Below are positions 19,983-39,588 of a stretch of DNA of 48,336 nucleotides, in pieces. The stretch's first letter is position 1. Each line of letters opens with the position of its first letter. The position numbers and the translations under genes are program-made. This DNA is from Ktedonobacterales bacterium (GTDB lineage: Bacteria > Chloroflexota > Ktedonobacteria > Ktedonobacterales > JADMIN01), in assembly GCA_025935195.1 (NCBI GenBank), contig JAICVS010000016.1, positions 1 through 48,336 on the forward strand, given 5' to 3'. The notes under the pieces are model-generated. The model was not told the DNA's origin, searched no databases, and was given only the letters and a program-made list of their open reading frames with translations.

Positions 19983-20040
19983 TTCCACGCAGGTGGACTT
20001 CGCGGCCGCGGGCCCTCCAGGCGCGATTTCAATCGCCAGT
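19983..20040 (-). repeat. Three-hairpin interspersed repeat, copy R1
   Basis: Read on the minus strand: GCGATT-GA-AATCGC, then GCGCCTGGAGGGCC with stem GGCC-CGC-GGCC, then stem TCCAC-CTGC-GTGGA. Stem bases differ from copies R2 and R3 in a compensating way. Confidence 0.75.
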
Positions 20041-20220
20041 CCGCTTGCATACCTGGCCCGCCATGTGCTTTCTCTGTCCAGTGTCCCAGTGGCGCCCCAG
20101 CGGCGCGCAACCCGCGCCGCCCGTGAAGCGTCTTGTATCATAGCGAGTTCTCAGGAGAAACCGACCGGACAGCAGTTCCCGCACACGCACGACGACCCGT
20201 GGCACGAAGATTCACCTCTT

Positions 20221-20260
20221 CACATCTCCTCTGCGTCCTCTGCGTCATCCGCGGTGAATA
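20221..20260 (+). repeat. GCGTCCTC-type interspersed repeat, copy C1
   Basis: CT-rich sequence with tandem CTGCGTC-like units ending GCGGTGA. It is similar to segments at 26389-26414 and 39303-39352. Such sequences are common low-complexity intergenic repeats in several bacterial groups. Confidence 0.55.
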
Positions 20261-20296
20261 TTCCTTGATCTCCAAGGACGGCAGGAGGCAGCGCGC

Positions 20297-22504
20297 GTGA
20301 GCAGCAACGACCGCCGGAGCGTCCCCACGCGCCCCGTCCCCGACAACTCGCACCTGCCCCCCGTCTCCGGCTTCTACGGCCCGCCCTCCGCCCCCATCCG
20401 TCCCGGCCGGCCCGGCGAATGGGAACGCGCCGCCGGCTGGAAGCCGCCCCGGCCCGCGCGCCCCTCGCTGGCGGGCCGTCTCCCCCGCGGCGTGCTTCTC
20501 GCCCTCGTCGCCCTCAGCCTCATCCTCGGCTTCGCCAGCGCCACCGCCATCACCCGCCTCGCCGACCTCGGCCTCGCCACCACCGACGCCGGCCTCCAGC
20601 TCGCCTACCTCAAGAGCGAGGTCTCCGGCGGCTCCATCCTCCAGACCGACCGCCTCGTCTCCACCAAAGCCCACCTCCAGCAGCTCGACAGCGACCTCGC
20701 GCGCATCCAGGCCGAGCTCCCCAACACCGCCTCACCCGACATGCGCAGCGTCGTCCACCTGCTGCGCATGGGCCGCGACTTCACCCAGGCCGGCATCGAA
20801 GGCATAGACGTGCCCATCGCCCTGCTGCCCGCCCTCAAAGGCATGCTCTCCGGCCTCGGCGGCTCCTCCGGCGCCTCCACGCCCACCGCCGCCGCGCCGC
20901 CGCTCACCACCGCCCAGATCGACGTCCTCGCCGCCAAGACCGACCGCGCCGCCGCGCTGGTGGAGCGCGGCCTCGCGGAGCGCGCCCAGGTTCACGACGC
21001 CGATCTCCAGCGCCTGCACCTCGGCGCGCTCGTCCCCACCCTGCAAAAGCTCGACGCCCAGACGCCCAAGCTCCGCGCCTACCTGGCCGACGCCAGCGGC
21101 GCCGTGCGCGCTCTGCCCGATCTGCTCGGCCTCAGCGCCCCCGCGCACTACCTGCTCTTCGGCATGGACTCCGACGAGCTGCGCCCCACCGGCGGCTTCT
21201 ACGGCAACTACGCCGTCGTCACCCTCGCCGGCGCCCACCTCCAGGGCGGTGTCCACCTGCGCGACATCTACGAGCTCGACTGCCCCACCGGCCTCGATAG
21301 CTGCTCCAACAACGGCATCCCCAACAAATTCGCCTGGTTCGACTTCCAGCACGTCCACCTCACCGACTCGATCAACCTGCGCGACTCCAACCTCGACCCC
21401 GACGTGCCCACCTCCGCGCAGTCCTCCGAACAGTACGCTGTGCAAGAGGGCCTGCCCCAGGCCAGCGGCGTCTTCGCTTTCACCCCCGCCCTGATGGAGC
21501 GCATCCTCACCCTCACCGGCCCCATCCGCGTGGACGCCTTCAACCGCACCGTCACCGCCGACAACCTGCGCGACACCATCCACTACTTCCACATCCTCAA
21601 CGCCTTCTGTGCCTCCGACAACCACCCCAACGACCCGCGCTGCGCCGAGCTGAAAGGCGCCAACACCAGCAACCTCAACACCTCGGACCGCAAGGCCTTC
21701 GACGCCGCCCTCGGCGCCACCCTCTTCCACACCATCGGCGCGCTGCCCGCCTCCGACCAGGGCAAGCTCTTCCGCACCGTCCTCGAAGCCCTCCAGACCA
21801 AAGACCTCGTCCTCTACTTCAACGACCAGCGCCTCGAAACGCTGCTGACCACCCTCACCTTCGACGGCGCCGTGCAGACACCGCCCGGCGACAGCCTCTT
21901 CCTGGTAGACACCAACGTCGGCGCATCCTACGTCAACGGCGACGTGCGCGAGCGCGCCCAGGATGTCGTCACCCTCGGCGCCGACGGCTCCGCCACCCAC
22001 GACCTCACCCTCACCTACGACTACCCCGTCGTCCCGCACACCTGGAACGACATCTACCTCCCCTCCGGCGGCAACTGGCGCTACCACGACTTCGTGCGCG
22101 CCCTCGTCCCCACCAGCGCCTCTACCAATGCCATCAACGGCTGCGACCCCTTCCCCGCCGCGCAGGAGCAGAGCGCCGTCCTCTCCTGCTACTTCTTCCT
22201 CACCCGCGCCGACACCCCGCGCTACTGCGACGCCGACTCCTGCCAATCCGCCACCCTCACCCTCCACATACAATGGACCGTTCCCAGCGCCGTCACCTCC
22301 GCCAACGGCGCGACGCAATACCCCCTGTTCATCCAGAAGCAGCCCGGCACCACCAACGCCTGGGACATCACCATCGTCCCGCCCAACGGCGCAGCGCTCG
22401 CCCTGCCCGACGGCTCCCCGCTCACCCTGGACGGCAACGGCCACGCCCACTACTCCAGCGTCCTCACCCGCGACCTCCCGCTCCTCGTCACCCTCTACTC
22501 CTGA
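20297..22504 (+). CDS. DUF4012-domain membrane-anchored protein
   Basis: A 735-residue protein with a proline-rich cytoplasmic head, one transmembrane segment (about 62-85, RGVLLALVALSLILGFASAT) and a large outer region. The hallmark of DUF4012 is DELRPTGGFYGNYAVV (about 294-310). Several paired Cys residues downstream (DCPTGLDSC, CDPF, CYFF, CDADSC) suggest disulfides outside the cell. DUF4012 proteins are often linked to exopolysaccharide or cell-surface assembly; the exact role is unknown. The GTG at 20297 follows GGCAGGAGG. A long opposite-strand open frame here is a codon-bias shadow. Confidence 0.85.
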   Translation: MSSNDRRSVPTRPVPDNSHLPPVSGFYGPPSAPIRPGRPGEWERAAGWKPPRPARPSLAGRLPRGVLLALVALSLILGFASATAITRLADLGLATTDAGLQLAYLKSEVSGGSILQTDRLVSTKAHLQQLDSDLARIQAELPNTASPDMRSVVHLLRMGRDFTQAGIEGIDVPIALLPALKGMLSGLGGSSGASTPTAAAPPLTTAQIDVLAAKTDRAAALVERGLAERAQVHDADLQRLHLGALVPTLQKLDAQTPKLRAYLADASGAVRALPDLLGLSAPAHYLLFGMDSDELRPTGGFYGNYAVVTLAGAHLQGGVHLRDIYELDCPTGLDSCSNNGIPNKFAWFDFQHVHLTDSINLRDSNLDPDVPTSAQSSEQYAVQEGLPQASGVFAFTPALMERILTLTGPIRVDAFNRTVTADNLRDTIHYFHILNAFCASDNHPNDPRCAELKGANTSNLNTSDRKAFDAALGATLFHTIGALPASDQGKLFRTVLEALQTKDLVLYFNDQRLETLLTTLTFDGAVQTPPGDSLFLVDTNVGASYVNGDVRERAQDVVTLGADGSATHDLTLTYDYPVVPHTWNDIYLPSGGNWRYHDFVRALVPTSASTNAINGCDPFPAAQEQSAVLSCYFFLTRADTPRYCDADSCQSATLTLHIQWTVPSAVTSANGATQYPLFIQKQPGTTNAWDITIVPPNGAALALPDGSPLTLDGNGHAHYSSVLTRDLPLLVTLYS

Positions 22505-22651
22505 GCCGTCCCATTCCCCACCATCACGCTCGGATATGGACTGTCAGTGCGCGGCATGCCGCACCCGCTCTCAACCGCCATTCCCACCGCGCGCACCAGC
22601 GCACGCGCCCCGGCAATCCGTAGCCATCACCCTTGATAATCATCGCAATTA

Positions 22652-22990
22652 GTGGTAAATCAGTTCTATTCACGCGGCGCCACCCAACGCCGCCAGCACC
22701 TTACCAACCGCATAAACCCGCAAACACGGCAATCTCATCCGCTGGTAGCCGTACGCCAGACAGCCTGGATGCGGCCGCTATCCATCCGAACCTTGCCACT
22801 TTTGCCACCCACCGTGCCACTTCTTGCCGTTTCTTGCCGCGATCGTGCCGCGTTTGCCACCCAGAACGCGCACTGTCACGTTGCCGGATCGCGCAAACCG
22901 GCTTGAATGCTGCATCCACGAGGAGAACGTGTCCGACACGAAATGAAAAAGCGGCAAAAACGGCAATGTTGACCATCGCGGTCAACATCA
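22652..22990 (-). repeat. Long interspersed element, copy A (inverted relative to copy B)
   Basis: About 339 bases, similar along its whole length to 36361-36686 in reverse orientation. Shared blocks include AACATTGCCGTTTTTGCCGC, ATTCAAGCCGGTTTGC, GCGGCACGATCGCGGCAA, TATGCGGTTG, GGGTGGCGCCGC and AGAACT-ATTTACCAC, all in the same order. The end near 22990 forms a hairpin (TGTTGACC / GGTCAACA). The element is lower in GC than its surroundings. A short open frame (22701-22991, minus) is shared with copy B only in part. Confidence 0.85.
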
Positions 22991-23010
22991 TCCACCCGCC
23001 CGCCGCTCCG

Positions 23011-23055
23011 CCTCTCCTCGCAAGGAGAGGGGGCCGGGGGGTGAGGACACCTCGC
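23011..23055 (+). repeat. REP-like two-hairpin repeat, copy 2
   Basis: Stem CCTCTCCT / AGGAGAGG with loop CGCA (23011-23030), then a G-run and GGTG-AGGA-CACC. This matches the architecture of 1623-1664 but with different paired bases. Confidence 0.6.
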
Positions 23056-23146
23056 CGCGGTACACATCCTGCCGACTTCGATCCGCATATCGCGCCCGCG
23101 CCGAACGCCGCCCCTGATCCAGCCCATCGAGAAAGGAGCCACCAAC

Positions 23147-24361
23147 ATGTCTGGCTCGCTACACGTCGCCACCATCGCCGGCATCCGCATCAACATCAAC
23201 TACACCTGGCTGATCGTGCTCGTCCTGCTCACCTTCTCGCTCGCCGTCGGCTGGTTCCCCTTCGCCGCGCCCGGCCTCTCCACCGGCGCCTACTACCTGC
23301 TCGGCTTCATCGCCGCCATCCTCCTCTTCGTCTCCGTCCTGCTCCACGAGCTCGCCCACTCCATCGTCGCCCGTGCCCGTGGCCTGCCCGTCAGCAGCAT
23401 CTCGCTCTTCATCTTCGGCGGCGTCTCCAACATCGAGCAAGAGCCGCGCAGCCCCGGCGTCGAGTTCCAGATGGCAATCGTCGGCCCCGTCACCAGCCTC
23501 ATCCTCGGCGGCATCTCCTGGCTGCTCGCCCAGGCCGTCGGCAGCGCCAGCCGCCCCGTCACCGCCGTGCTGCTCTACCTCGCCGTCGCCAACGTCCTGC
23601 TCGGCCTCTTCAACCTCATCCCCGGCTTCCCGCTCGACGGCGGCCGCGTGCTGCGCTCGATCATCTGGCGGGCCAGCGGCAGCCTGCGCACCGCCACCCA
23701 CTGGGCCGCGCGCGTCGGTCAGGTCGTCGCCTTCCTCTTCATCATCTGGGGCATCATCCAGGTCTTCACCGGCAACCTCGTCGGCGGCATCTGGATCGGC
23801 TTCATCGGCTGGTTCCTGCTCCAGGCCGCCCAGAGCGCCAACACCCAGGTCATGCTCGAAGCGCTGCTGCGCGGCGTCACCGTCCGCGACGTGATGCGCC
23901 CCGTCGCCGCCGCCGTCCCGCCCGACCTCACCCTCAGCCAGATGGTGAACGGCTATATGCTGCCGCTCGGTCTGCGCGCCGTACCCGTCACCCGCGACGA
24001 CCAGCTCGCCGGCCTCATCACCCTCGCCGACGTGCGCCACGTCCCGCGTGACGAATGGGATCAGACGCCGGTCGGTCGCGTGATGATCCCGCTGGAGCGG
24101 CTGCACGCTGTCGGCCCCACCCAGAGCCTCAACGACGTGCTGCCCCTCATGGCCCACCAGGACGTCAACCAGCTCCCCGTCGTCGCGGCGGACGGCCGCC
24201 TCCTCGGCATGGTCACACGCGAAGCCGTCGTCCACTTCCTCGAAGTGCGCCGCGGCCTGGGAGTGAATGAGGCCGAGCGCCGCACCAATACACGCCTGCC
24301 CGCCGCGCCTGCTTCTCCTGTCCCGCCCGCCCCGCCACACGCGACCGGCGCCCCCTCCTAG
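23147..24361 (+). CDS. Site-2 protease family metalloprotease with CBS domains
   Basis: A 404-residue intramembrane zinc protease. HELAH at 67-71 gives two zinc His and the catalytic Glu. NLIPGFPLDGGR at 156-167 gives the third ligand (Asp164). About five to six transmembrane segments lie in the first 230 residues, followed by two CBS domains (about 240-375: TVRDVMRP, LAGLITLADVRH, QLPVVAADGRLLGMVTREAV) that probably sense adenine nucleotides. The C-terminus is a Pro/Ala tail. This is the SpoIVFB-like, CBS-bearing subgroup. Its substrate, perhaps an anti-sigma factor or other membrane protein, is not in the neighbourhood. The ATG at 23147 follows AAAGGAG. Confidence 0.92.
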   Translation: MSGSLHVATIAGIRININYTWLIVLVLLTFSLAVGWFPFAAPGLSTGAYYLLGFIAAILLFVSVLLHELAHSIVARARGLPVSSISLFIFGGVSNIEQEPRSPGVEFQMAIVGPVTSLILGGISWLLAQAVGSASRPVTAVLLYLAVANVLLGLFNLIPGFPLDGGRVLRSIIWRASGSLRTATHWAARVGQVVAFLFIIWGIIQVFTGNLVGGIWIGFIGWFLLQAAQSANTQVMLEALLRGVTVRDVMRPVAAAVPPDLTLSQMVNGYMLPLGLRAVPVTRDDQLAGLITLADVRHVPRDEWDQTPVGRVMIPLERLHAVGPTQSLNDVLPLMAHQDVNQLPVVAADGRLLGMVTREAVVHFLEVRRGLGVNEAERRTNTRLPAAPASPVPPAPPHATGAPS

Positions 24362-24470
24362 CCCGCATCGGCACGGCTCGTGCGGCTTGCCCATCACGCA
24401 CGTGCGGCCGTATCTCCCGCCTATTGGTATGTGCCTCACACGGCGCTACATGACGAAGGAGCCAACCACC

Positions 24471-25046
24471 ATGACCACCCCGCAGGCTGAGCCGCTGTTA
24501 CAGGCATACGCTCAGGGCCAGCGCGCCTTCCATGGCCGCAACATGAGCGACATCGAGCTTCCCGGCGCGGACCTTTCCGGCGCCGACTTCACTGGCGCCG
24601 TCGCCGAGCGCGCGGACTTCACCAACGCCAACCTCGCGCAGGCGATCTTCAAGGAAGCCGATCTCGAAGGCGCGGACCTCGCCGGCGCCAACCTCTCGGA
24701 CGCCGACTTCACCGGCGCGAATCTGACCAAGGCGACGTTCTCCGGCGCCAACCTGACCGGCGCGATCCTGCGCGAGGCCACCCTCGCCGGCGCGGACCTC
24801 GCCGGCGCCCAGCTCGAGAACGCTGACCTCACCCTCACCATCCTCGAAGGCACCGACCTCGACCGCGCGGACCTACGCGACGCCAGCCTGCGTGCCGCCG
24901 ATCTCTCAGACGCCACGCTCCAGGGCGCAGACCTCGCCGACGCCAACCTGGCCGACGCCACGCGCGCGCCCGACGATCTCGCCCAGGCGTTTGGTATTGA
25001 CGAAAACGTGCGAGATACCAACGCCCAGCCCGGCGGCCCGGCCTAG
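24471..25046 (+). CDS. Pentapeptide-repeat protein
   Basis: A 191-residue protein dominated by A(D/N)Lxx repeats from about residue 27 to 165 (GADLSGADFTGA, RADFTNANLAQA, GADLAGANLSDADF and so on). These should form a right-handed quadrilateral beta-helix of about 28 repeats. No transmembrane segment. Such proteins can mimic DNA (gyrase protection) or act as scaffolds; nothing here chooses between these. The ATG at 24471 follows AAGGAG with ten bases spacing; an upstream in-frame extension looks non-coding. Confidence 0.88.
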   Translation: MTTPQAEPLLQAYAQGQRAFHGRNMSDIELPGADLSGADFTGAVAERADFTNANLAQAIFKEADLEGADLAGANLSDADFTGANLTKATFSGANLTGAILREATLAGADLAGAQLENADLTLTILEGTDLDRADLRDASLRAADLSDATLQGADLADANLADATRAPDDLAQAFGIDENVRDTNAQPGGPA

Positions 25047-25142
25047 CGGTCGCGCCGATGGTCCCTCGGTTTGGCATACCAGGTGCTTCACTCTCTGCCG
25101 GTCGGCGTTGGATGCTCGGCGCCGCACCGGAAGGAGCGAAGC

Positions 25143-25796
25143 ATGACCATCGGCCCGGTGCAATTCTACCTTTTGATCGTCGCCTTCACCGCCGTCGCCG
25201 GCTGGCGGCGCGGCTGGGTGCGTGAAGTCATCACCTGCACCATCATCCTTGCTACCCTGCTCTTCCTCACACTCGGCGGCGCGGACATCCTTGCCAACCT
25301 GCTCGGCGGCCACGGCCTCGCCCTCGTTCCCACGGCATCCGCGCACCCGCTGTACCCCGCCGGCGGCGGCAATCCCAGTGGCGGCGGCCTCCCCGGCCAG
25401 CCACCCGCGCCCGGCACGAGCGGCAGCGTCTCCGCCTCCACCGCCTGCCCGACCAACGTCAGCGCCCAGGCGCTCGGCACGCTGATCTTCGCCGGCATGA
25501 CCTGGTTCGCGTACCGTATGGGCACGCGGTTCGGCTCGCCACCGTCCAGTCGCGGCCAGCGCTGGGCCGGCGTCATCCCCGGCGCGGTCAACGGCGGCGC
25601 TATCGCCTACTGGGTCAGTCGTACCTTGCTGCCCGGCCAGCAGATCATCGTGCAAAGCCCCAGCTCCGGCGTCACCGTCGCGCTGCTGCCGCTCGTCTTC
25701 GGCTTCGGCCTGCTCGCCCTGCTCGCCATCCTCTTCATCGCCAGCCAGACCAGCAAGGGCGCCAAGCCCGGCGGTGGAGGCAGCGGCGGCAAGTAA
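25143..25796 (+). CDS. CvpA-family membrane protein
   Basis: A 217-residue integral membrane protein. The first segment FYLLIVAFTAVAGWRRGWVREVITCTIILATLLFL matches the CvpA pattern (helix, G-x-x-R-G, helix). A Gly/Pro/Ser-rich extracytoplasmic loop follows (about 60-110), then helices near 112-130, 150-170 and 182-205, and a Gly/Lys tail. CvpA relatives are tied to colicin V production and envelope stress. The ATG at 25143 follows GGAAGGAGCG. It sits 96 bases after the pentapeptide gene on the same strand. Confidence 0.7.
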   Translation: MTIGPVQFYLLIVAFTAVAGWRRGWVREVITCTIILATLLFLTLGGADILANLLGGHGLALVPTASAHPLYPAGGGNPSGGGLPGQPPAPGTSGSVSASTACPTNVSAQALGTLIFAGMTWFAYRMGTRFGSPPSSRGQRWAGVIPGAVNGGAIAYWVSRTLLPGQQIIVQSPSSGVTVALLPLVFGFGLLALLAILFIASQTSKGAKPGGGGSGGK

Positions 25797-25826
25797 GAGG
25801 GAGAAGGCGAATCCACACCGGCTCAC

Positions 25827-25855
25827 TTGACAAACCAGAATTCCTGTTCTATCCT
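25827..25855 (+). promoter_or_regulatory. Candidate sigma70-type promoter of the HIT gene
   Basis: TTGACA (25827-25832), 17-base spacer, TATCCT (25850-25855). This is a near-consensus promoter with a predicted leader of about 48 bases to the ATG at 25910. Confidence 0.65.
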
Positions 25856-25909
25856 ATCCGTGGTATCGCATAGTGTGCGAACGCGGCATGGGAACAGGAG
25901 CGGCTCGCC

Positions 25910-26413
25910 ATGGACTGCCTACTTTGCCATCCCCTGCCCGGCTACGAGGTCTGGGAGCGCGCGCATTGGCGGCTCGCCGTCAATTACAATCAGAACACGC
26001 TCGGCAAGTGCTTCCTCATCCTCAAGCGCCACGACGAGGACATCTGCGACCTCACGTCAGACGAGCTGACCGATCTGTGGACTGCCATCCGCCGCGTCCG
26101 CGACGCCTTGCGCACTCGCTTCCAGCCCGACCGCTTCAACTACTCATTCCTGATGAACCAGGATCGCCACGTCCACCTGCACGTCATCCCGCGCTACGAC
26201 GCGCCGCGCGCCTTCGCCGGCTTGGACTTTCTCGACCGCGACCCCATCCCACCGTTCTCCATCCCCGATCCCATTCGCGATCAGCTCGTCATGACATTGC
26301 GTGAGGCGCTGGATGAGCAACCTCCCGTGATCATCCCGCATCCGCTACCACACAACGCCGTGGATCAAGACACCGCTTTCTTCCCTCAGCGTCCTCAGCG
26401 TCCTCAGCGGTGA
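25910..26413 (+). CDS. HIT-family nucleotide hydrolase
   Basis: A 167-residue cytoplasmic protein. The histidine triad HVHLHVIPRY (87-96) contains the nucleophilic second-last His, and CLLC at the N-terminus could join a structural zinc site. The core (residues 1-100) matches the HIT fold of nucleotidyl hydrolases and transferases such as Ap4A hydrolase. The last residues, FFPQRPQRPQR, are encoded by a copy of an intergenic repeat, which also supplies the stop. The ATG at 25910 follows AGGAG and a strong promoter. Confidence 0.9.
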   Translation: MDCLLCHPLPGYEVWERAHWRLAVNYNQNTLGKCFLILKRHDEDICDLTSDELTDLWTAIRRVRDALRTRFQPDRFNYSFLMNQDRHVHLHVIPRYDAPRAFAGLDFLDRDPIPPFSIPDPIRDQLVMTLREALDEQPPVIIPHPLPHNAVDQDTAFFPQRPQRPQR

Positions 26414-26414
26414 T
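26389..26414 (+). repeat. GCGTCCTC-type interspersed repeat, copy C2, in the HIT gene end
   Basis: Three tandem units of (C)AGCGTCCT ending GCGGTGA. It encodes the Pro-Gln-Arg repeats at the HIT C-terminus and its stop codon. Confidence 0.6.
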
Positions 26415-26508
26415 GTATCCGTCCTTGACGGATCGCCGCCGCTGCCGTACAACCGTGGGGACGACCGCCAGCCAATACGCCGGCCTGATCATCAGGGGGA
26501 GGACATGT

Positions 26509-27297
26509 ATGGGGATGCCAGGCGCGAATATCACGATTGACGTCTCCCGCGTCGTGCCAGAGGCGCGTGAGGCCGTCGAATGGGCCGGCCGCGTCTACTA
26601 CGAGCACACGCGCCCATGGTTCGTCGGCCTCGTGCTGCACGGCTCCGCCGTCAAGGGCGGCTTCATCCCACGTTGCAGCGACATAGACTTCCAGCTCTAT
26701 CTCGGCCCCGCCGCCTTCACCCCAGAGGGCTACCTGCCCTTCGCTACGAGCGCCGCCATCCAGCGCAACCTCGCCTGGATCGACCCCAAGCCCTTTGCCT
26801 ACCTCCAGTGCTACGCCTATCCCGGCACGCTCGCCGAAGGCCAGATCGGCCCCGTTCCCGGAGCGTATGCGCTGCTGGCCGGAGAGCTGCCCGTCCCAGA
26901 GGCCACCGCCGAGCAACTCCGCGAATCCGCCCGCCGCGCGCTCGATGCGCTGGACCCCGTTCCCGGCGCGCTCAAGACCGGCCTACTCGAACATGGCGAC
27001 GGGAAACTCGAGCGCATGGTGCGCTTGCTCTGCACGGACGTCTGGCCCGTCGTCTACCAGATCGTCGCCATCCAGCACGACGAGCCGATCCGCGCCTGGA
27101 ACCTGCGCAAAGACGCCGCCATCGCCCTGCTGCCCAAAGACGGTGAGCTCCACGCCCACGCCTCCAGCTTCCACCGCACCGTCCGCGCCTACTACCCCTC
27201 GCGCCACGCCCACGACGCCGCCGTCACGCTGCTCGAACACGGCGTCAACTTCCTCACCACCGCCAAAGCCTGGTGGCAGCAGCGCCGCGACGCATGA
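26509..27297 (+). CDS. Nucleotidyltransferase-domain protein
   Basis: A 262-residue protein of the polymerase-beta-like nucleotidyltransferase fold. GLVLHGSAVKGGF (40-52) gives the G-S motif and SDIDFQLYL (57-65) the metal-binding Asp pair. The rest is helical and may form a substrate-binding domain, as in aminoglycoside nucleotidyltransferases. The actual substrate is unknown. The ATG at 26509 is preceded by GGGGGAGGA at 6 bases. It overlaps the next gene by ATGA, so the Nudix protein is translationally coupled. Confidence 0.78.
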   Translation: MGMPGANITIDVSRVVPEAREAVEWAGRVYYEHTRPWFVGLVLHGSAVKGGFIPRCSDIDFQLYLGPAAFTPEGYLPFATSAAIQRNLAWIDPKPFAYLQCYAYPGTLAEGQIGPVPGAYALLAGELPVPEATAEQLRESARRALDALDPVPGALKTGLLEHGDGKLERMVRLLCTDVWPVVYQIVAIQHDEPIRAWNLRKDAAIALLPKDGELHAHASSFHRTVRAYYPSRHAHDAAVTLLEHGVNFLTTAKAWWQQRRDA

Positions 27298-27827
27298 GCC
27301 AGTCAATGAACCACGAGATCGTCGCCGCCCTCATCCGCCGCGACGACGGCGCCATTCTGCTCGTGTGCCAGCAAGGCTCGGACGACCCGGAACCGGCGTG
27401 GGCGTTGCCGGGCGGCGTGGCCGAGCCAGGTGAGCTGCTTGACGAGGCCCTTACCCGCGAGGTACGCGAAGAGACCGGCCTGGATGTCACCGCCCTCGGC
27501 CCGCTGCTCTACGTCACCCAGTTCCATAACCCCGCCAGGCGCCTGCGCGGCGACTGGTCCGACCGTCCCGCCGGCTACTCCGCCACCGCCTTCATCTTCG
27601 CCGTCGCCGTGCGCGCAGGCGAGATCGCCGTTGCCGACCCGGACGCCTTCGTCTCCGCCGCCCGTTTCGTCCCGCTCCCCGAAGCTATTGCCCTGCTCGA
27701 AGCGCATCCCCTGCGCGTCATGCGCGAGCCGGTCGTGGCGTACCTGCGTGGCGAGGCCGCGGCCGGCGCCGTCTGGCTCTACCGCCGTTTGCCCGACGGC
27801 AGGGATGCCCTGCTCGCCCGCCTGTGA
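27294..27827 (+). CDS. Nudix hydrolase
   Basis: A 177-residue enzyme with a perfect Nudix box, G-x5-E-x7-REVREETGL (residues 41-63), that binds Mg2+ and cleaves nucleoside diphosphates linked to another moiety. The start overlaps the stop of the nucleotidyltransferase gene (ATGA, 27294-27297). A second Met four codons later is an alternative. Coupling suggests a joint role in nucleotide or modified-nucleotide handling, which is inference. Ends 6 bases before a convergent gene. Confidence 0.93.
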   Translation: MSQSMNHEIVAALIRRDDGAILLVCQQGSDDPEPAWALPGGVAEPGELLDEALTREVREETGLDVTALGPLLYVTQFHNPARRLRGDWSDRPAGYSATAFIFAVAVRAGEIAVADPDAFVSAARFVPLPEAIALLEAHPLRVMREPVVAYLRGEAAAGAVWLYRRLPDGRDALLARL

Positions 27828-31680: not shown

Positions 31681-31851
31681 AAAGGACATTTTCCAACTCT
31701 GCGGTTCATTCTCTGCTCCCCCTGGTGCCGATCATGCATACAAGCCATCCAGCGCATCAGGATGGATCGCAAGTTCAGCGCATTCCCGTCCAACAACCAC
31801 ACACTGGCCTTTCACGACCACGAGATCGCTCCACAACACGGAACCAGCACA

Positions 31852-32991
31852 ATGAAGCTCTCTGCCGTTCCCGAAAACGCGCTCGAATGGCTCGCACGCG
31901 CCGCCGGCGCCGTCCCCACGCCCATCCTCGACACCCTGATCGCCCTGCTGCTCGCCCGTTCCGTCATGGTCGCCACCCGGCTGGACATCTTCGAGGCGCT
32001 CGCGGGCGGCCCGCTGCCCCCCGACGAGGTCGCCGCTCGCTGTGGCACTGATCCCTCTGCCACGGCAAAGCTGCTTTCCGCCCTCGCCGGCGCCGACTAC
32101 CTCACCTACGACGCCGGCCGCTACGGCCTCGCCCCCGTCGCGCGCAAGTGGCTGCTCAAAGACAGCCCCCACTCGCTGCGTGACGCCATCCTGCTCCAAC
32201 TGCTGGACGCCCGCTTCATCGAACACCTCGACGATTTCGTACGGAGCGGCGAGCCGGTCCACATGCATGAGGGCCTTACCACCGATGAGTGGGCGCTCTA
32301 CATGCGCGGCATGCGCTCTGGGGCCACGCTCGCCGCGAGCGAGCTGGTCCGCCGCGTTCCCGTTCCTTCCGGCGCACGTGCCATGCTCGACATCGGCGGC
32401 GCCCACGGCTACTACTCTGTCGCTCTCTGCCGCCGCCACCTCGATCTGCGCTCCACCATCCTCGATCTGCCCGAGGCATGCGCCGCCGCCGCGCCGCTGC
32501 TCGCCGCCGAGGGCATGGGCGACCGTGTGGTCTACCAGCCCGGCAACGCCCTCACCACCGATCTCGGCGTCGAGACGTACGACCTCGTACTCATCGCCAA
32601 CCTCGCCCACCACTTCAGCGCCGGCGCCAACCGCGCGCTGGTCCGTCGCATCGCCCGCGCGCTGCGCCCCGGTGGCGCGCTCGTCTTCGCTGAGGTGATG
32701 CGCCCGCGCACCCCTGGCGACGCCGGCCAGGCCGGCGCGCTCGCCGATCTCTACTTCGCCCTCACCAGCGAATCCGGCGCATGGTCGTTCGAGGAGATGG
32801 CCGCCTGGCAGCGCGAGGCCGGCCTGATCCCCAGGAAGCCCATGCGCCTGCTCACCGCGCCGGGCGGCGGCCTCCAGATCGCCACCCGTCCGCGCGTCCG
32901 CTCCACTCGCTTCACTACCGACCCCATGGCGCACCCATCGGCCCATCGCGATCGCGATACTCATCTCGCGTCCAGCCTCACTCCCACCTGA
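31852..32991 (+). CDS. SAM-dependent O-methyltransferase with winged-helix dimerisation domain
   Basis: A 379-residue enzyme. The N-terminal helical and winged-helix domain (residues 10-105: RSVMVATRLDIFEALAGGPL, LLSALAGADYLTYDAGRYGL) is followed by the SAM-binding DIGGAHGYYSVALC (180-193), a second acidic strand (STILDLPEAC) and LRPGGALVFAEVM. This is the plan of O-methyltransferases of the acetylserotonin / hydroxyneurosporene (CrtF-like) type. Substrate unknown. The ATG at 31852 is chosen because the earlier in-frame ATG at 31762 lies in a low-confidence leader. The ribosome site is weak (GGAACC). Confidence 0.85.
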   Translation: MKLSAVPENALEWLARAAGAVPTPILDTLIALLLARSVMVATRLDIFEALAGGPLPPDEVAARCGTDPSATAKLLSALAGADYLTYDAGRYGLAPVARKWLLKDSPHSLRDAILLQLLDARFIEHLDDFVRSGEPVHMHEGLTTDEWALYMRGMRSGATLAASELVRRVPVPSGARAMLDIGGAHGYYSVALCRRHLDLRSTILDLPEACAAAAPLLAAEGMGDRVVYQPGNALTTDLGVETYDLVLIANLAHHFSAGANRALVRRIARALRPGGALVFAEVMRPRTPGDAGQAGALADLYFALTSESGAWSFEEMAAWQREAGLIPRKPMRLLTAPGGGLQIATRPRVRSTRFTTDPMAHPSAHRDRDTHLASSLTPT

Positions 32992-33089
32992 TCCCGCCAC
33001 CAATATGACATGCGATGTCGTCTATTCTCACGCATACTCCCCCTGTGGGCATCACACTTGCTGCCCATACGTCCACAACACAGCCAGCC

Positions 33090-33145
33090 GGCGATTGAAA
33101 CCGCGCCTAGATGGCCGTTGGCCGCGACGTCCGCCATCGCGGACT
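33090..33145 (+). repeat. Three-hairpin interspersed repeat, copy R2
   Basis: GCGATTGAAACCGC (one mismatch in stem 1), CGCGCCTAGATGGCC with stem GGCC-GTT-GGCC, then GTCCGC-CATC-GCGGAC at 33129-33144. It aligns base for base with copy R3 over most of its length. Confidence 0.75.
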
Positions 33146-33232
33146 GGAGCAGCGGCGAGAGTCCGCATCTCTGTGTCCAACCGCATCAGTGCCGCGATCC
33201 AGCCGTGATTCCCACAAAGGAGCACCCACCCC

Positions 33233-34108
33233 ATGCGCTATGGTTTCGTCATCCCCGGTGGTGATGTCCGCGCATTTCCGGCGCTCGCCCGCGAGGCCGA
33301 GGCTGCCGGCTGGGAGGCCGTCTTCCTGCCCGACTGCATCTCGATAGACGCGGCGGTCGATCCCGCCTCCGGCATTGGCTTCGATCCGTGGGTGGCCCTC
33401 ACCGCCATCGCCGCCGCCACTGAGCGCATCCGCCTTGGCACCATGATCACCCCGCTCTCGCGCCGCCGCCCCTGGAAGGTCGCCCGCGAGACCGCTACCC
33501 TCGACATCCTCTCCGGTGGCCGTCTCATCCTGCCCGTCGGCCTCGGCGCGCTCGATGACCAGGGCTTCGCCGGCGTCGGCGAGCCGACCGACCGCGCCAC
33601 CCGCGCCCAGCTCCTCGATGAATCGCTCGCCATCCTCGCCGGCCTGTGGAGCGGCGAGCCATTCAGCTATGCTGGCCGTCACTATCATCTCGACACGATG
33701 ACCTTTCGCCCTACGCCCATCCAGCGGCCGCGCATCCCCGTCTGGGTCGTCGGCGCCTGGCCGCGTGAGAAGTCTATGGCCCGCGTGTCGCACTGGGACG
33801 GCCTGCTGCCCAACACGCTCGGCGACGACGGCTCCCACCAGCCCACCACCCCCGCCGACCTCGCCGCCATGCGGGCCTACATCGCCGCGCATCGCACCGC
33901 CTCCACTCCCTTCGACATCGTCATGGAAGGCGAGACTCCCGGCGAGGATCCCGCGCGCACCGCTGAGATCGTCAGCCCGCTGGCCGAGGCCGGCGCGACG
34001 TGGTGGCTCGAATCGTTCTGGACGCCGCGACCTACCCGCGAGGGCTACGCCGATCCGCTCGACGCCGTGCGCGCGCGCATCAGTGCCGGGCCGCCGCGCA
34101 TTGATTGA
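33233..34108 (+). CDS. LLM-class flavin-dependent oxidoreductase
   Basis: A 291-residue TIM-barrel enzyme of the bacterial luciferase-like family, probably using F420 or FMN. Patterns include MRYGFVIPGGDVR, ALAREAEAAGWEAVFLPD, AATERIRLGTMITPLSRRRPWKVARETATLDILSGGRLILPVGLG and a C-terminal PLAEAGATWWLES. F420 versus FMN use cannot be told by eye. The ATG at 33233 follows AAAGGAG. It is followed directly by a ROK-like gene. Confidence 0.88.
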   Translation: MRYGFVIPGGDVRAFPALAREAEAAGWEAVFLPDCISIDAAVDPASGIGFDPWVALTAIAAATERIRLGTMITPLSRRRPWKVARETATLDILSGGRLILPVGLGALDDQGFAGVGEPTDRATRAQLLDESLAILAGLWSGEPFSYAGRHYHLDTMTFRPTPIQRPRIPVWVVGAWPREKSMARVSHWDGLLPNTLGDDGSHQPTTPADLAAMRAYIAAHRTASTPFDIVMEGETPGEDPARTAEIVSPLAEAGATWWLESFWTPRPTREGYADPLDAVRARISAGPPRID

Positions 34109-34114
34109 GAGCTG

Positions 34115-35317
34115 TTGGGGCGTGGGCATGCGATACTGAGCGCGAGCGGTATTCAGTTCAATCACCTCGTTGAGTGGAAACAGCCCAAGCCCGATCCTCT
34201 TGACCCCGCGCGCCTCACCCCCACTGCCTCGCTCAACCGGGCGCGTATCGTAGACCTGCCCGGCCTCGCCCTCGATCCCGATGTGCGCGGCCGGACCGGC
34301 TCCGAGCTGCTTTCGGCCCAGGCGCTCGCCGCCGCCATCCGCCCGCACGCCGCCGCGCTCGCGCTCACAGCCGAGGAGCAATCGGATGACATGCTTCTGC
34401 TCCCCGCCTTCGACCGTTCTCTCGCATCCCGCGACCCGGCCGTTCGCGCCGTCGCCCGCGATCTTGCCCGTCGCTTCGGCCGCTCTCTCGGCTATCTCCT
34501 GCTCACGCTCAGGCGCGGCGATCTGGTGAATCGCCAGGCGCGCGGCGAGTGGGACGACACCTACTGGTCTCACTGGGCTGGCATCCGCGCCATCTGGCTC
34601 GGCGGCGGGCTTGTCCGCGGTCGGCTCGGCCGCCACATCCGTCGCCATGCCACCGATCTGCTTGCCGCCAGCGGCGCATCCGATCTCGCCCTGCGCATCT
34701 CTATGTCTCCAACCTTGCTGCCGATCATCGGCGCCGCCCGCACCGTCCCACCCTCGATGCACCGCGCGGCGCTCGTCCTCGACTTCGGCGGCAGCGCCGT
34801 CAAGCGCGTCCTCGCCCGCTACGACGATGCTGGCGCCCTGGCCGCGCTCCATCCGTTCCCATCGCTGCCAGCCCCACGACTTGCCGGCGATATCACGTCC
34901 GATCCCACTCCTGAGCAGGCCCGCTCGCTCGCCGCTGAGATGGCCTGCGTGATCGCATGCTCCTGGCGCGAAGCCTCCACTGCTCATCCTGATCACCCCC
35001 TCAATCCATCCATTCCCATCAGCCTCGCCGCCTACGTGCGCAACGGCCATCCGCTGCCGCGCCAGATTGGCACCTACGCCGCCCCGCGCGCCCTCCCCGA
35101 AAACGCCGCATCGGTCCTCTCCCAGCGTGTGAGCGCGCTGGTGGATCGCCTTCTCGATGTCTCGCTCATCCACGATGGCAGCGCCGCCGCTCGTGCCCGC
35201 GCCGGCACTCCCCATGCCGCCGTCATCCTGCTCGGCACCGCCCTCGGCGTTGGCTTCATCCCGCCCACCGCGGCATCACTCCGGCCTCTTGCGACGGGCT
35301 TCACTGTTGCCCTATGA
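34115..35317 (+). CDS. ROK/ASKHA-like protein of unknown specificity
   Basis: A frame of about 400 residues, open directly after the LLM-oxidoreductase stop. The middle shows ALVLDFGGSAVKRVLARYDD (about 216-236), the phosphate-1 type loop of ASKHA nucleotide-binding proteins. The end shows VILLGTALGVGFIPP, like the GTGxGxG loop of ROK sugar kinases. The N-terminal 150 residues are unlike ordinary ROK proteins. No ATG lies near the 5' end: TTG at 34115 is used here, and the first ATG would remove about 90 residues. Start and function are therefore uncertain. A long opposite-strand frame is rejected as a shadow. Confidence 0.5.
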   Translation: MGRGHAILSASGIQFNHLVEWKQPKPDPLDPARLTPTASLNRARIVDLPGLALDPDVRGRTGSELLSAQALAAAIRPHAAALALTAEEQSDDMLLLPAFDRSLASRDPAVRAVARDLARRFGRSLGYLLLTLRRGDLVNRQARGEWDDTYWSHWAGIRAIWLGGGLVRGRLGRHIRRHATDLLAASGASDLALRISMSPTLLPIIGAARTVPPSMHRAALVLDFGGSAVKRVLARYDDAGALAALHPFPSLPAPRLAGDITSDPTPEQARSLAAEMACVIACSWREASTAHPDHPLNPSIPISLAAYVRNGHPLPRQIGTYAAPRALPENAASVLSQRVSALVDRLLDVSLIHDGSAAARARAGTPHAAVILLGTALGVGFIPPTAASLRPLATGFTVAL

Positions 35318-35469
35318 CCACCGCGCGACAAGGTCGCCCAGCGCTCTGGCGCGATGGGGCGGCGCTGGCACACAATAGGTGCGGAACGAAGCGCCCGCCC
35401 GTCTCGAACTTCGGCTTGTGGCTGTCGTGCATTGATACCGCACCTTTCATGAGGAGACCTCCATCACTT

Positions 35470-36264
35470 ATGAGCAGCTCGCGCACCTATGGCCGCGCGC
35501 CCTTCGCCGTCGCCGTCTTGCACGGCGGCCCCGGCGCGCTCGGCTCCATGGCCGCCGTCGCCCGCACGCTCGCCGCCGAATGGGGTGTGCTGGAGCCGCT
35601 GCAAGACGCGCTCTCCATCGGCGCCCAGGTGGAGGAGCTGCGCGCGATGCTCGACCAGCACGCCGATCCGCCCGTCACGGTTGTCGGCTCGTCCTGGGGC
35701 GCCATGCTCGGTCTGATCTTCGCGGCCCAGCATCCCGCGCTCGTGCGCAAGCTCATATTGGTTGGCTCCGGCCCGCTCGACGCGCGCTACGCGGCCGGCA
35801 TCAGCGAGACACGCCTTGGGCGTCTCAGCGATGACGAGCGCGGCCGGCTCAACGCTCTCGCCGCCGCTCTCGACGATCCGGCCGTGGCGGACAAGAGCGC
35901 GACGCTCGCCGCTATTGGCGCCCTCTCCGCCCGCGCTGACACCTACGATCCCTTTCCCAGCGATGCCGGGGAGACGGAGGAGACGGACGTTCGCTACGAG
36001 GTGTTCCAGCGCGTCTGGGCGGAAGCCGAAGCGCTGCGGGCACGCGGCGGATTCCTGGAGCTGGCGCGGCGGGTGGAATGCCCTGTCGTCGCCATCCACG
36101 GCGACTACGATCCGCATCCCGCCGCGGGCGTCCGCGACCCGCTCGCCGCCATCCTGCCGGACTTCCGCTTCATCCCGCTCGAACGCTGCGGCCACGAGCC
36201 GTGGATCGAGCGGCATGCTCGCGATGCGTTCTATCGCATCCTCCAGGCTGAATTGCGGGCTTGA
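35470..36264 (+). CDS. Alpha/beta-fold hydrolase
   Basis: A 264-residue cytoplasmic hydrolase. HGGPG (18-22) forms the oxyanion hole region, GSSWG (73-77) carries nucleophile Ser75, and HGDYDPHP and CGHEPWIERHAR give the likely acid and catalytic His. This suits esterase/proline-iminopeptidase-like enzymes; substrate unknown. The ATG at 35470 is chosen because GAGGAGACC lies about 13 bases upstream. An upstream in-frame stretch from 35314 looks non-coding. Confidence 0.87.
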   Translation: MSSSRTYGRAPFAVAVLHGGPGALGSMAAVARTLAAEWGVLEPLQDALSIGAQVEELRAMLDQHADPPVTVVGSSWGAMLGLIFAAQHPALVRKLILVGSGPLDARYAAGISETRLGRLSDDERGRLNALAAALDDPAVADKSATLAAIGALSARADTYDPFPSDAGETEETDVRYEVFQRVWAEAEALRARGGFLELARRVECPVVAIHGDYDPHPAAGVRDPLAAILPDFRFIPLERCGHEPWIERHARDAFYRILQAELRA

Positions 36265-36285
36265 TGACTGATAGTCAGTGGGCCG

Positions 36286-36322
36286 GCGGTCGCAACCGCG
36301 CCGGGATGGTCCGCGACGCCTG
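36286..36322 (+). repeat. Three-hairpin interspersed repeat, degenerate copy R4
   Basis: Stem 1 is intact (GCGGT-CGCA-ACCGC). The rest, CGCCGGGATGGTCCGCGACG, is shortened relative to copies R2 and R3. Confidence 0.5.
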
Positions 36323-36360
36323 GCTTGGCCTTGGCCGGACTGAATTGAGCCGCGGGCGGC

Positions 36361-36686
36361 AATGTTGACTGGCGTGGTGAACATTGCCGTTTTTGCCGCT
36401 TTTTGGCCGCGTGTCGGGGATGACTTGCGCCCGAATGCCGAATTCAAGCCGGTTTGCCGGGATCGGGAACTTGACGTTTCGTGTTATGGGCGGCAAAAGC
36501 GGCACGATCGCGGCAAAAACGGCAAGGCGAGTGGCACGGTTTTGACCGATTCCGGCACGATCTGGTACGTCCACGGCGCGGTGTATGACGTGGCTGGGCA
36601 GGGATGACCGGGATTCGCCTCGATATGCGGTTGTTCAGGTGCTAGCGGCGCGGGGTGGCGCCGCAACAGTAGAACTAATTTACCAC
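36361..36686 (+). repeat. Long interspersed element, copy B
   Basis: About 326 bases, homologous in reverse orientation to 22652-22990, with the same ordered conserved blocks. Its left end can form a hairpin (AATGTTGAC / GTGAACATT with one mismatch). The two copies lie about 13.4 kb apart as inverted repeats, flanking the site-2 protease to hydrolase region. Confidence 0.85.
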
Positions 36687-36811
36687 AAAGAGATCGGGCT
36701 GTCAAGGGGATGGCCGTGATTGTGCATCCCGTACGCGATCATGGCGCACGATCACGGCGCGTTCCCACGTGCGGCGGCGATCCAGTCCATTCGCGAGGTT
36801 CTGTTCATCCT

Positions 36812-37498
36812 ATGCCCCACATCAGCGGCCACGACATTACGGTCTTGATCCAGACCTACGGCTATTGGGCCGTGCTGTTGTTCGTCGCGGTCGAGAGCAC
36901 CGGCATCCCATTCCCTGGCGAAACGATGCTGCTGGCCGCCGCCATCTACGCCGGCGCGACACACCAGCTTGCCCTCCCTTTGGTCATCGCCGCCGCCGCC
37001 GCGGGCGCCATCTTCGGCGACAACCTGGGCTTCTTCGTTGGGCGCGAGGGCGGCTATCGCCTGCTGCGCCGCTTCGGCCACATCATCCACCTGGACGCGC
37101 GCCGCCTCAAGCTCGGCCAATATCTCTTTTTGCGCCACGGCGGCAAGATCGTCTTCTTCGGGCGCTTTGTCGCCGTCTTGCGCGCCTGGGCCGCGTTCCT
37201 GGCCGGCGCCAACCGCATGCGCTGGAGCCGCTTCCTCCTGTTCAACGCGGCGGGCGGCATTCTCTGGGCCGCGCTCTATGGCGCCGGCGGCTACCTCCTT
37301 GGCGACACGGTGCATCATCTCAGCGGACCAATTGGCATCGTCGCGCTCATCCTCGCCGCCGCCGCGACACTCGCCGGCTTCCTCTTCATCCACCGCAACG
37401 AGCGCCGCCTTGCCGACGAGGCCGACCGCGCTATTGCTGACGATCCGCTGGCGCGCTCGCCGCGCCCGCCTCGGCCTCAAACTCCGGCCACTCCCTGA
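36812..37498 (+). CDS. DedA-family membrane protein
   Basis: A 228-residue membrane protein of the DedA/VTT family, linked to phospholipid scrambling and membrane homeostasis. Hallmarks: VAVESTGIPFPGETMLLAAAIYAG, GDNLGFFVGREGGYRLL, then VFFGRFVAVLRAWAAFLAGANRMRWSRFL, with the conserved F-x-R-x3-R core. About five hydrophobic segments. The ATG at 36812 is chosen by homology to the family start; the ribosome site is weak (GCGAGGTT). Confidence 0.92.
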   Translation: MPHISGHDITVLIQTYGYWAVLLFVAVESTGIPFPGETMLLAAAIYAGATHQLALPLVIAAAAAGAIFGDNLGFFVGREGGYRLLRRFGHIIHLDARRLKLGQYLFLRHGGKIVFFGRFVAVLRAWAAFLAGANRMRWSRFLLFNAAGGILWAALYGAGGYLLGDTVHHLSGPIGIVALILAAAATLAGFLFIHRNERRLADEADRAIADDPLARSPRPPRPQTPATP

Positions 37499-37506
37499 GT
37501 GAGCCA

Positions 37507-37560
37507 GCGGTTCAAACCGCGCCTGGAGGGCCCGCGGCCGCCACGTCCGCCGCCGCGGAC
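37507..37560 (+). repeat. Three-hairpin interspersed repeat, copy R3
   Basis: GCGGTT-CA-AACCGC, then CGCCTGGAGGGCC with stem GGCC-CGC-GGCC, then GTCCGC-CGCC-GCGGAC. All three stems are perfect here. Confidence 0.8.
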
Positions 37561-37603
37561 GGGGAGATGGGGAGATGGGGAGAGGGGGGAGACGGGGAGA
37601 CGC
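37559..37603 (+). repeat. G-rich tandem array, quadruplex-prone
   Basis: Five or more G-runs of at least four bases separated by AGAT or AGAC-like spacers directly follow repeat R3. The plus strand satisfies the usual G-quadruplex pattern. It lies about 160 bases before the MOSC gene. Confidence 0.65.
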
Positions 37604-37656
37604 CCTGCGCGGATGGGGAACGGCACGCGCCCTGAATATCCATCCTCCCGCTTGTC

Positions 37657-37685
37657 TTGTAACGCATCCGGCATCCCGATACACT
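37657..37685 (+). promoter_or_regulatory. Candidate sigma70-type promoter of the MOSC gene
   Basis: TTGTAA (37657-37662), 17-base spacer, TACACT (37680-37685), about 76 bases before the GTG start. Confidence 0.45.
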
Positions 37686-37761
37686 CTCTAGCGGCGCGGG
37701 CACGAGGCCGACCGCCGAGCATCACGTTTGGCCCATTCCCTCTCGCCTCAGGAGAAGCCTT

Positions 37762-38454
37762 GTGTCCCAGCTCGCCTCCATGCGCATCGTCTCCGTCAAC
37801 GTCGGGCTCCCGCGCACCGTCGAATCCCACGGTCGCGCCGTGCGCACCGCGATCTTCAAGTCCGCCGTCGCCGGGCCCACCGCCATCCGCCACCTCAATC
37901 TCGACGGCGACCGCCAGGCGGACCTCTCCGTGCATGGCGGCCCCGACAAGGCCGTCTATGCCTACGCTGCCGAGCATTACGACGCCTGGCGCGCAGAGCT
38001 GCCGGAGGTGGACTTTCCCTTCGGCGCTTTCGGCGAGAACCTGACGATCGTGGGCCTGCGCGAAGATGACCTTGCCATCGGCGACCGCCTGCGCGCGGGC
38101 ACGGCTGAGCTGATCGTGCGCCAGCCGCGCATTCCCTGCTACAAGCTCGGCGTTCGCTTGGGCCGCGACGACATCCTCAAACGCTTCCTGAATAGCGACC
38201 GCAGCGGCGTCTATTTCGCGGTCGCGCGCGAGGGAGTGGTGGAGGCCGGCGACGCCGTCACCGTGCTGGAGCGCGACCCAGATGGCGTCCGCGTCGCGGC
38301 GATCAACCGCCTCTACCGCGACCGCCGGTCGCGCCTGCCCACGCGTCTCTCCGCGCTCCAGCGCGCCGCCGATCTGCCATCGCTCCCTGAATCCTGGCGT
38401 ACGTACTTTCGCGAGCGCGCCGCCCGGCTCAGCGCGTCGTCGCCGGCAGAGTGA
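37762..38454 (+). CDS. MOSC-domain protein
   Basis: A 230-residue protein of the MOSC (molybdenum cofactor sulfurase C-terminal) superfamily, similar to YiiM. Patterns: LSVHGGPDKAVYAYAAEHYDAW, FGENLTIVGL, IGDRLRAGTAELIVRQPRIPCYKLG (the conserved Cys for sulfur or metal handling) and GVYFAVAREGVVEAGDAV. A C-terminal helical stretch follows. The GTG at 37762 has GGAG seven bases upstream. YiiM relatives reduce hydroxylated compounds with molybdenum cofactor; the exact role is not known. Confidence 0.88.
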   Translation: MSQLASMRIVSVNVGLPRTVESHGRAVRTAIFKSAVAGPTAIRHLNLDGDRQADLSVHGGPDKAVYAYAAEHYDAWRAELPEVDFPFGAFGENLTIVGLREDDLAIGDRLRAGTAELIVRQPRIPCYKLGVRLGRDDILKRFLNSDRSGVYFAVAREGVVEAGDAVTVLERDPDGVRVAAINRLYRDRRSRLPTRLSALQRAADLPSLPESWRTYFRERAARLSASSPAE

Positions 38455-38640
38455 CCGGCATCGCCACCTGCTCCTCGTCGGCGAAGATCGTCACGCCGCC
38501 CGACGCGAAGTTGGCGAGATCAGCGGTTGCCGCCTGACCCTCCGGCGACCCCAACGCGCTCTGGGCTGCCCGCTGATCGCAAAGTACAGGCTGGCGACGC
38601 GGTGGTACGGCGCGCTCGCACGTAGAACATGCGGTTCATA
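38429..38640 (-). pseudogene. EthD-family pseudogene, C-terminal remnant with frameshifts
   Basis: On the minus strand three pieces of one EthD-like protein lie in different frames: RMFYVRA, then APYHRVASLYF, then DQRAAQSALGSPEGQ and ADLANFASGGVTIFADEEQ, ending in a stop at 38431-38429. Frame changes fall near 38610 and 38577. The N-terminal half is missing. EthD-like proteins are small dimeric alpha/beta barrels tied to ether or aromatic degradation. The end overlaps the convergent MOSC gene by 26 bases. A sequencing error could explain one frameshift but not the missing N-terminus. Confidence 0.7.
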
Positions 38641-38788
38641 GGGGTTCCATGAATCATGCGGATTCGGCGTCAATCATCCAACACACCGGCGGGTGCAACG
38701 TAGATCAGGAAATGGGGGAGTGCCGGCGCTCTGGCGGCATGTGTCAGGCCCGCCATGTGCATGAGGATGACGCAAAGGAGTGTTCGCC

Positions 38789-39262
38789 ATGCAGAACAAT
38801 CCGCCTGTGGAGAGCGACGCGCCGACCTGGCCCGCGCACGCGCCGCCATCGCCTCAGCCATACGCGCAGCCGTATCCGCCGGCAGACGCGCAGCCGTATC
38901 CCCAGCCGCGACCGGTGCCTATGCGGGCGCCACCGTCGCGCGGCGCGCGCCGATCCACCTTTCAGGCGGATCGGGTCGCGCGGGCCCTCATCCAGCTCAT
39001 CTCCCTGGCGCTCGGCATCCTCGAATCGCTGCTGCTCGTGCGTATCGTGCTGCTGCTGCTCGCCGCCAGCCCGAATGCCGGCTTCTCGCGCTTCGTCTAC
39101 GGCGTGACGGCCCAGTTCGTCGCGCCCTTCCAGGGCGTCTTCCCCAACCCGTTCAGCCTCGGCGGCGCCACACTGGACGAGGCTGCCATCCTCGCCATGA
39201 TCGTCTACGCCCTCGCCGCGCGCCTCCTCAAAATGGCCGTGCGCATGATCTCGCACCTCTGA
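38789..39262 (+). CDS. YggT-family membrane protein
   Basis: A 157-residue protein. The first 60 residues are Pro/Gln/Ala rich with PYAQPYPPADAQPYPQP repeats, likely disordered. YggT-type helices follow (about 66-90, ALIQLISLALGILESLLLVRIVLLLLAA, and 125-150), with the typical FVAPFQGVFPN between them. The family is tied to cell division or turgor. The ATG at 38789 follows AAAGGAGTG. Confidence 0.82.
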   Translation: MQNNPPVESDAPTWPAHAPPSPQPYAQPYPPADAQPYPQPRPVPMRAPPSRGARRSTFQADRVARALIQLISLALGILESLLLVRIVLLLLAASPNAGFSRFVYGVTAQFVAPFQGVFPNPFSLGGATLDEAAILAMIVYALAARLLKMAVRMISHL

Positions 39263-39588
39263 ACCGCGCGAGGCAGCGGACCACCAGTTGCAACCGCACC
39301 TGTATTTCTCCTGATTTCTCCTGATTTCTCCTCCATGTCCTCGGCGGTGAGCTCTCCGCGCAAACTTCCCCCTATCCTTGCGGACCGTCTGCATGTATCA
39401 TATACGGGGCCTGTCTCCGGCTGTGCGGTTGCTCCGCGCCGGGCATCTGGTCCGTTATAGACATACACGATACGCGCAGCCCATCGCGTCGGCTGGGCGC
39501 TCGCCACCCGCGAGACGCGGCACGGTTTGGGGCAGCGGCCGCGCCGGTACGCGCTGTTCCCGCTACCGGCCCACGAGAGGAGAGACCC
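39263..39588. other. Intergenic region with partial repeats
   Basis: No gene seen. It holds a partial three-hairpin repeat (39284-39303), a GCGTCCTC-type repeat (39303-39352) and a weak promoter candidate (TTGCGG 39378-39383, 17 bases, TATACG 39401-39406) for the membrane-protein pair. Confidence 0.4.
39284..39352 (+). repeat. Adjoining partial R-type and GCGTCCTC-type repeats (R5 and C3)
   Basis: GTTGCAACCGCACC resembles stem 1 of the three-hairpin repeat. It runs directly into CTGATTTCTC tandem units and a TCCTCGGCGGTGA end, as in copies C1 and C2. Confidence 0.45.

Follow-up and report, generated by a model that had tools for sequence, protein, structure and literature searches.

Here we describe a dispersed repeat of three linked hairpins found in a 48,336-nt stretch of the genome of a soil-dwelling Ktedonobacterales bacterium (Chloroflexota) (GenBank assembly GCA_025935195.1, contig JAICVS010000016.1, positions 1 to 48,336; "the window" hereafter), together with a transposase gene that the repeat flanks in three phyla. 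We consider it probable (roughly 83%) that the repeats are non-autonomous transposable units resembling repetitive extragenic palindromes (REPs), moved as single-stranded DNA by a cognate TnpA transposase of TnpA-Y1 subclass 1.2. Judged from sequence, they are multi-hairpin, transposase-linked repeats that would work much as REPs do with their REP-associated tyrosine transposases (RAYTs), set apart from REPs by features described below. The whole looks more like DNA that spreads itself than like an RNA regulator.

Searching the home genome (4.74 Mb in 277 contigs) at the DNA level gave at least 40 matches, and an alignment of 35 copies defined the hairpins and yielded a covariance model. In that alignment, hairpin 1 (HP1) has the consensus GCGRT-TNAA-AYCGC, hairpin 2 (HP2) GGCC-nnn-GGCC, and hairpin 3 (HP3) (A)GTCCGC-CnnC-GCGGAC(T), in the order HP1-HP2-HP3 within a unit of ~70 nt. 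A search for further copies had been named beforehand in the first-pass annotation of the window; with the covariance model it recovered at least 150 units in this genome, so the repeat does not fall for want of copies. For detailed counts we used 128 copies in 1.02 Mb, comprising stretches picked for their copies plus the window. Unit edges are sharp and flanks unrelated (information content is at background ~3 nt before the model start and ~10 nt after HP3). All 128 sequences are distinct, with a median pairwise identity of 70%, and, since all sampled copies differ, most are probably old. When genes were predicted with a home-made caller (coding fraction 0.785), 127 of the 128 copies were intergenic and one lay within a predicted gene—an exception to the earlier statement that all copies are intergenic.

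One pointer to a mobile origin is the gene that the repeat accompanies. Y1_Tnp genes were sought in the home genome and its relatives, and their surroundings scanned with two repeat models. In one clade (clade I), 17 of 17 genes have a repeat within 500 nt, 16 on both sides and one on a single side, whereas a repeat lies near only 1 of 18 IS200-type genes (L228, one side) and on both sides of none. The first flanked genes came from the home genome (L032), its relatives (L222, L223, L232), cyanobacteria (L248, L250, L272), and Armatimonadota (L266); the clade I gene L277 of a Ktedonobacterales relative is also repeat-flanked, and the outermost copies around clade I genes are usually mutually inverted. 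When 194 cyanobacterial genomes were searched with the clade I alignment, all nine high-scoring genes (L272 among them) adjoined the repeat. Hosts of clade I thus span Ktedonobacterales, Cyanobacteria, and one Armatimonadota metagenome-assembled genome (MAG); a genome typically has one or two clade I or sister genes, and at most three. The cognate gene of the home genome is intact and lies outside the window (G000:C274:22238-22657, minus strand).

Clade I proteins share the motifs DHVH, WQ, and Y---Q--HH in alignment, score above the cut-off of NCBIfam NF033573, and have IS200-type transposases as their best solved-structure matches; against NCBIfam REP_Tyr_transpos they reach 28 bits (cut-off 80). 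These motifs, with separation from IS200 proteins in the tree, are the sequence signature by which we assign clade I to TnpA-Y1 subclass 1.2. According to Quentin et al. (2018; PMC6006769), this subclass is low-copy, occurs mainly in Cyanobacteria and Bacteroidetes, is not REP-associated, and generally lacks IS200-type ends. The likeness extends to motifs, protein length (131–156 aa), low copy number, and presence in Cyanobacteria and Bacteroidota; the difference is that the subclass as published comes with no REP, whereas here it is repeat-flanked and occurs also in Chloroflexota and Armatimonadota. Subclass 1.2 proteins, which had no DNA partner in that 2018 account, thereby gain a candidate one, and the candidate substrate is defined well enough for testing in vitro, also from a sequenced cyanobacterial strain.

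The pairing of gene and repeat extends to relatives of clade I. Repeats beside a lower-scoring cyanobacterial sister clade keep the layout but differ in their stems (e.g., CCGCCGGGGATTGAAATCCCCGTCTCATAGCGAAAGTCGGTTTTAACCGACT). A structure-only scan, based on loop and CT features and no stem sequence, overlooks many of the clade I copies recovered by the models; it placed units near 14 of the 20 sister-clade genes and near 0 of 28 control genes. In the tree, clade I and the sister clade group together against IS200 proteins and proteins lacking the HUH motif (support 100/99). In two Bacteroidota relatives, both plasmid-borne, the gene is likewise surrounded by inverted palindromic repeats; the Persicobacter repeat is seen nine times on its own plasmid and once on a different replicon, and the Bernardetia repeat was found beside its gene only. 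We give about even odds to a wider reading: that subclass 1.2 is a general single-strand transposition system of at least four phyla, whose substrate would be two different linked hairpins plus an optional third, forming a minimal left-end/right-end module, with the plan kept while stem sequences turn over and chromosomal orientation recording the direction of replication.

The covariance model matched in 20 of 61 genomes searched, the home genome included. All 10 same-family relatives were matched (G005 by one weak match), and a second family of the same order with large genomes (f2) gave one marginal match in total; the f2 relatives without the repeat are also without a clade I transposase. 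A gapped HP1+HP3 pattern occurs in at least 117 stretches of named genomes, mainly of Oscillatoriales cyanobacteria, and also in Ktedonobacteria, an Armatimonadaceae MAG, and an unclassified MAG. Cyanobacterial units have two hairpins, HP2 being absent and the linker typically GNCTACACAAACNAA, and Ktedonobacterales units have three. A cyanobacterial consensus found no match in plasmid or phage collections.

We infer that the units move, and that single-strand cleavage, strand choice, and copying would proceed by analogy with the IS200/IS605 family. In the proposed scheme, TnpA would act on one exposed strand of DNA, where it would recognize HP1 and HP3 and cut beside both, and the cut unit would be joined into single-stranded DNA at replication forks. 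Joining into one strand at forks would lead units to pile up between genes in a single orientation relative to replication. The arrangement of copies has counterparts elsewhere: many copies in genus g3 abut one another as inverted doublets, an arrangement termed REPIN in other bacteria (PMC3116915). Such doublets are common in g3 and in cyanobacteria and rare in the home genome, where neighbors share a strand. At an orthologous intergenic site, only one of the congeners G002 and G010 has a doublet.

Several observations weigh against this reading. At the G002/G010 site, divergence of the junctions prevents an empty site from being defined, and neither movement, excision, nor a clean empty site was seen in an all-against-all locus comparison and the congener comparison; the former yielded indels that did not contain the core unit, and a single case of HP1 amplified in tandem. 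No identical pair exists among the 128 home copies. The complete relative G003 has 83 copies and no clade I transposase, which shows that the repeat can persist in its absence. No clear unit flanks four other subclass-1.2-like genes, of which an unclassified MAG and the Armatimonadota MAG hold two each. Finally, in the window, one of the four accepted units agrees with the local GC skew discussed below (R1), and three oppose it (R2, R3, and R4).

The paired stem changes could instead mark a structured RNA family—terminators, mRNA stabilizers, or small RNAs—under selection at the transcript level. Stem covariation is indeed strong, and the earlier expectation that it would persist with more copies was borne out: among 128 copies, 234 cells carry changes on both sides, where shuffles give 66 and slid controls at most 15, although related copies inflate such counts, which therefore show pairing rather than the number of events. 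Also in favor of RNA is the intergenic placement, with a median distance of 66 nt to the 3' ends of genes and 194 nt to their 5' ends. Yet imperfect stem cells comprise 31 G.U and 26 A.C pairs (the poorly paired outermost HP3 pair excluded), with no wobble preference on either strand. As G.U on one strand is A.C on the other, a helix selected as RNA should favor one of them; counts this similar suggest a hairpin of DNA, or quasi-palindromes corrected by template switching. Direction relative to adjoining genes is not fixed (45 against, 25 with, 26 divergent, 23 convergent), Rfam gave no match in the window, nor around R4 at E up to 1, and the unit flanks a transposase clade in three phyla. The symmetry of G.U and A.C together with the gene orientations disfavors an RNA regulator, which we regard as very unlikely. 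The first-pass annotation had taken paired changes to imply selection on structure, as RNA or as a mobile DNA hairpin; the data favor the second form, but paired changes alone are no proof of selection, because template switching in quasi-palindromes can also produce them. The case carries a caution, that compensatory changes in bacterial repeats can stem from DNA hairpins and not RNA, and offers a cheap test in the count of G.U versus A.C.

Orientation along the chromosome bears on how the putative mobile DNA units were inserted. In the home sample, copies that neighbor each other at ≤20 kb lie on one strand in 61 of 67 cases. Orientation agrees with GC3 skew in 42 of 55 stretches (rho 0.53, p = 2e-5), but not with gene strand (25 of 55). 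For G003, where 20 windows were picked for copies of uniform strand, orientation agrees with GC skew in 18 (rho 0.83, p = 7e-6) and with gene strand in 8. Two simple replichore arms could not be drawn from repeat strand in G003, as strands alternate in blocks, and local skew was used for that reason; GC skew itself changes sign many times along this genome, and inversions probably carried repeats and skew together. The pattern fits insertion into one strand at replication forks, with GC skew as an indirect sign of replication direction, and insertion into one replication strand is documented for IS200/IS605 (PMC6006769). The way in which REPs spread is still debated (PMC8266576); the strand bias is indirect genomic evidence of a REP-like repeat entering one strand at forks.

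The same strong match of orientation to GC skew in two genomes is what a polar chromosome-organizing sequence, such as an orienting or Chi-type motif, would give if selection for a host function kept its orientation, whatever its origin. Insertion bias accounts for the same pattern, however, and the two ideas can coexist; moreover, entire families among the relatives lack the repeat, most copies are diverged, and units adjoin transposase genes. We hold this account to be very unlikely, on a par with the RNA one. Least credible of all is that an ordinary IS200/IS605 TnpA (subclass 1.1) moves the repeat and the subclass 1.2 link is secondary (e.g., autoregulation), for although subclass 1.1 genes are present in the home genome and relatives, the unit stands on both sides of 0 of 18 and one side of 1 of 18 such genes, and the 1.2-type sister clade has its own version of the repeat.

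The repeats have several known systems as close counterparts. They resemble REP/REPIN and RAYT systems (PMC3116915, PMC2817692, PMC3733652, PMC8266576) in being high-copy intergenic palindromes, in some genomes as inverted doublets, with a co-diverging low-copy HUH/Y1 gene that they flank; the flanking of a cognate Y1 transposase gene (every one of the 17 in clade I) is the likeness to RAYTs. They differ in build: the unit is ~70 nt long and links two or three different hairpins, where a REP is one palindrome of 20–40 nt. The GTAG/GTGG tag at the foot of canonical REP palindromes is absent from home copies: GTAG stands beside HP1 on the complementary strand in 0 of 128, compared with 25 of the 45 copies aligned from outside Chloroflexota (cyanobacteria and others). 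RAYT transposases are class 2 (Y---NP), and the present one is class 1 (Y---Q--HH). Because the GTAG tag, single hairpin, and class 2 transposase features fail, we do not class the units as REPs. With IS200/IS605 elements and their non-autonomous derivatives they share the enzyme fold family, hairpins at the ends, and replication-strand bias, but the unit here is gene-less, its copies are old and divergent, and subclass 1.1 genes are not flanked by it (apart from the one-sided case).

An open-access literature search with the repeat sequences as text returned two papers, both unrelated. Elhai et al. in 2008 reportedly described short, mobile-looking dispersed repeats in filamentous cyanobacteria. 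Some cyanobacterial copies may overlap with those families.

Within the window, the HP1 core pattern has four matches against a shuffle mean of 0.04. Complete units are R1 (19973..20042, minus strand; 75.7 bits with the covariance model), R2 (33085..33154, plus; 78.8 bits), and R3 (37501..37570, plus; 80.0 bits). R1 lies between an ADH_zinc_N gene (18815-19813, minus) and a DUF4012 gene (20297-22504, plus), R2 has an O-methyltransferase gene and a luciferase-like monooxygenase gene as neighbors, and R3 begins 3 nt past the stop codon of a VTT-domain gene and is followed by a MOSC-domain gene. In R3, the aligned stems with both-side changes are HP1 (GCGGTTCAAACCGC; 37507..37520, plus), HP2 (GGCC-CGC-GGCC; 37529..37539, plus), and HP3 (GTCCGC ... 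GCGGAC; 37545..37560, plus). R4 (36280..36345, plus; 37.6 bits) is a decayed copy with HP1 intact. Of the five interspersed copies first claimed, R1–R3 therefore stand as full units and R4 as a decayed one, and R5 (39284-39303) is rejected: it has no model match, and its 6 of 21 positions off the HP1 core are at chance level, the same number of mismatches occurring at five places in the window. The stem changes quoted for R1 and R3 proved correct on direct reading of the sites; stem 1 of R2 has one A.C mismatch (GCGATT/AACCGC).

R4 abuts a member of a second dispersed repeat family of ~370 nt, with copies in the window at 36345-36720 (plus) and 22615-22995 (minus). Members of the family are 70–85% alike and number 42 in ~1.06 Mb sampled; for 19 of them a three-hairpin unit lies ≤150 nt away, with the strand shared in 17 cases and direct contact in nine. 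Rfam gave no match around the plus-strand copy.

Other observations concern individual loci. Among L005 (~480-550), L003 (near 129), and L013 (near 1551), one copy appears interrupted by a sequence starting GGTTCTGTTGACATTT and two further copies, at contig ends, both appear interrupted by one sequence (GCAATACCG...), as if insertion sequences used the repeat as a target. In one Microcoleus-type genome, a 27-nt piece with HP1 only is amplified in tandem (L169 508-634, compared with L108); the amplification is absent from a relative. Beside a cyanobacterial clade I gene, inverted units alternate over a long array (L308 38-1475) with a ~164-nt period, resembling a bacterial interspersed mosaic element. 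The G003 arc at ~4.75-5.07 and 0-0.94 Mb (~1.2 Mb) holds just 1 of its 83 copies, and a 20-kb stretch of that genome (G003:C1:3136000-3155999, L404) has 25.5% G+C, the rest being near 60–65%; it is possibly an acquired island. In the home genome, the HUH-less gene L034 has a repeat nearby, which we judged to be chance as its orthologues are not flanked. L034 belongs to a well-supported HUH-less IS200-like group in Ktedonobacterales (with L224, L225, L233, L234, L235, L237, L239, L240, and L241), in which the motif is lost (PDRVYLA) and the C-terminus is AT-hook-like (RRPRGRPRK); by its sequence the group looks like a domesticated, catalytically dead transposase.

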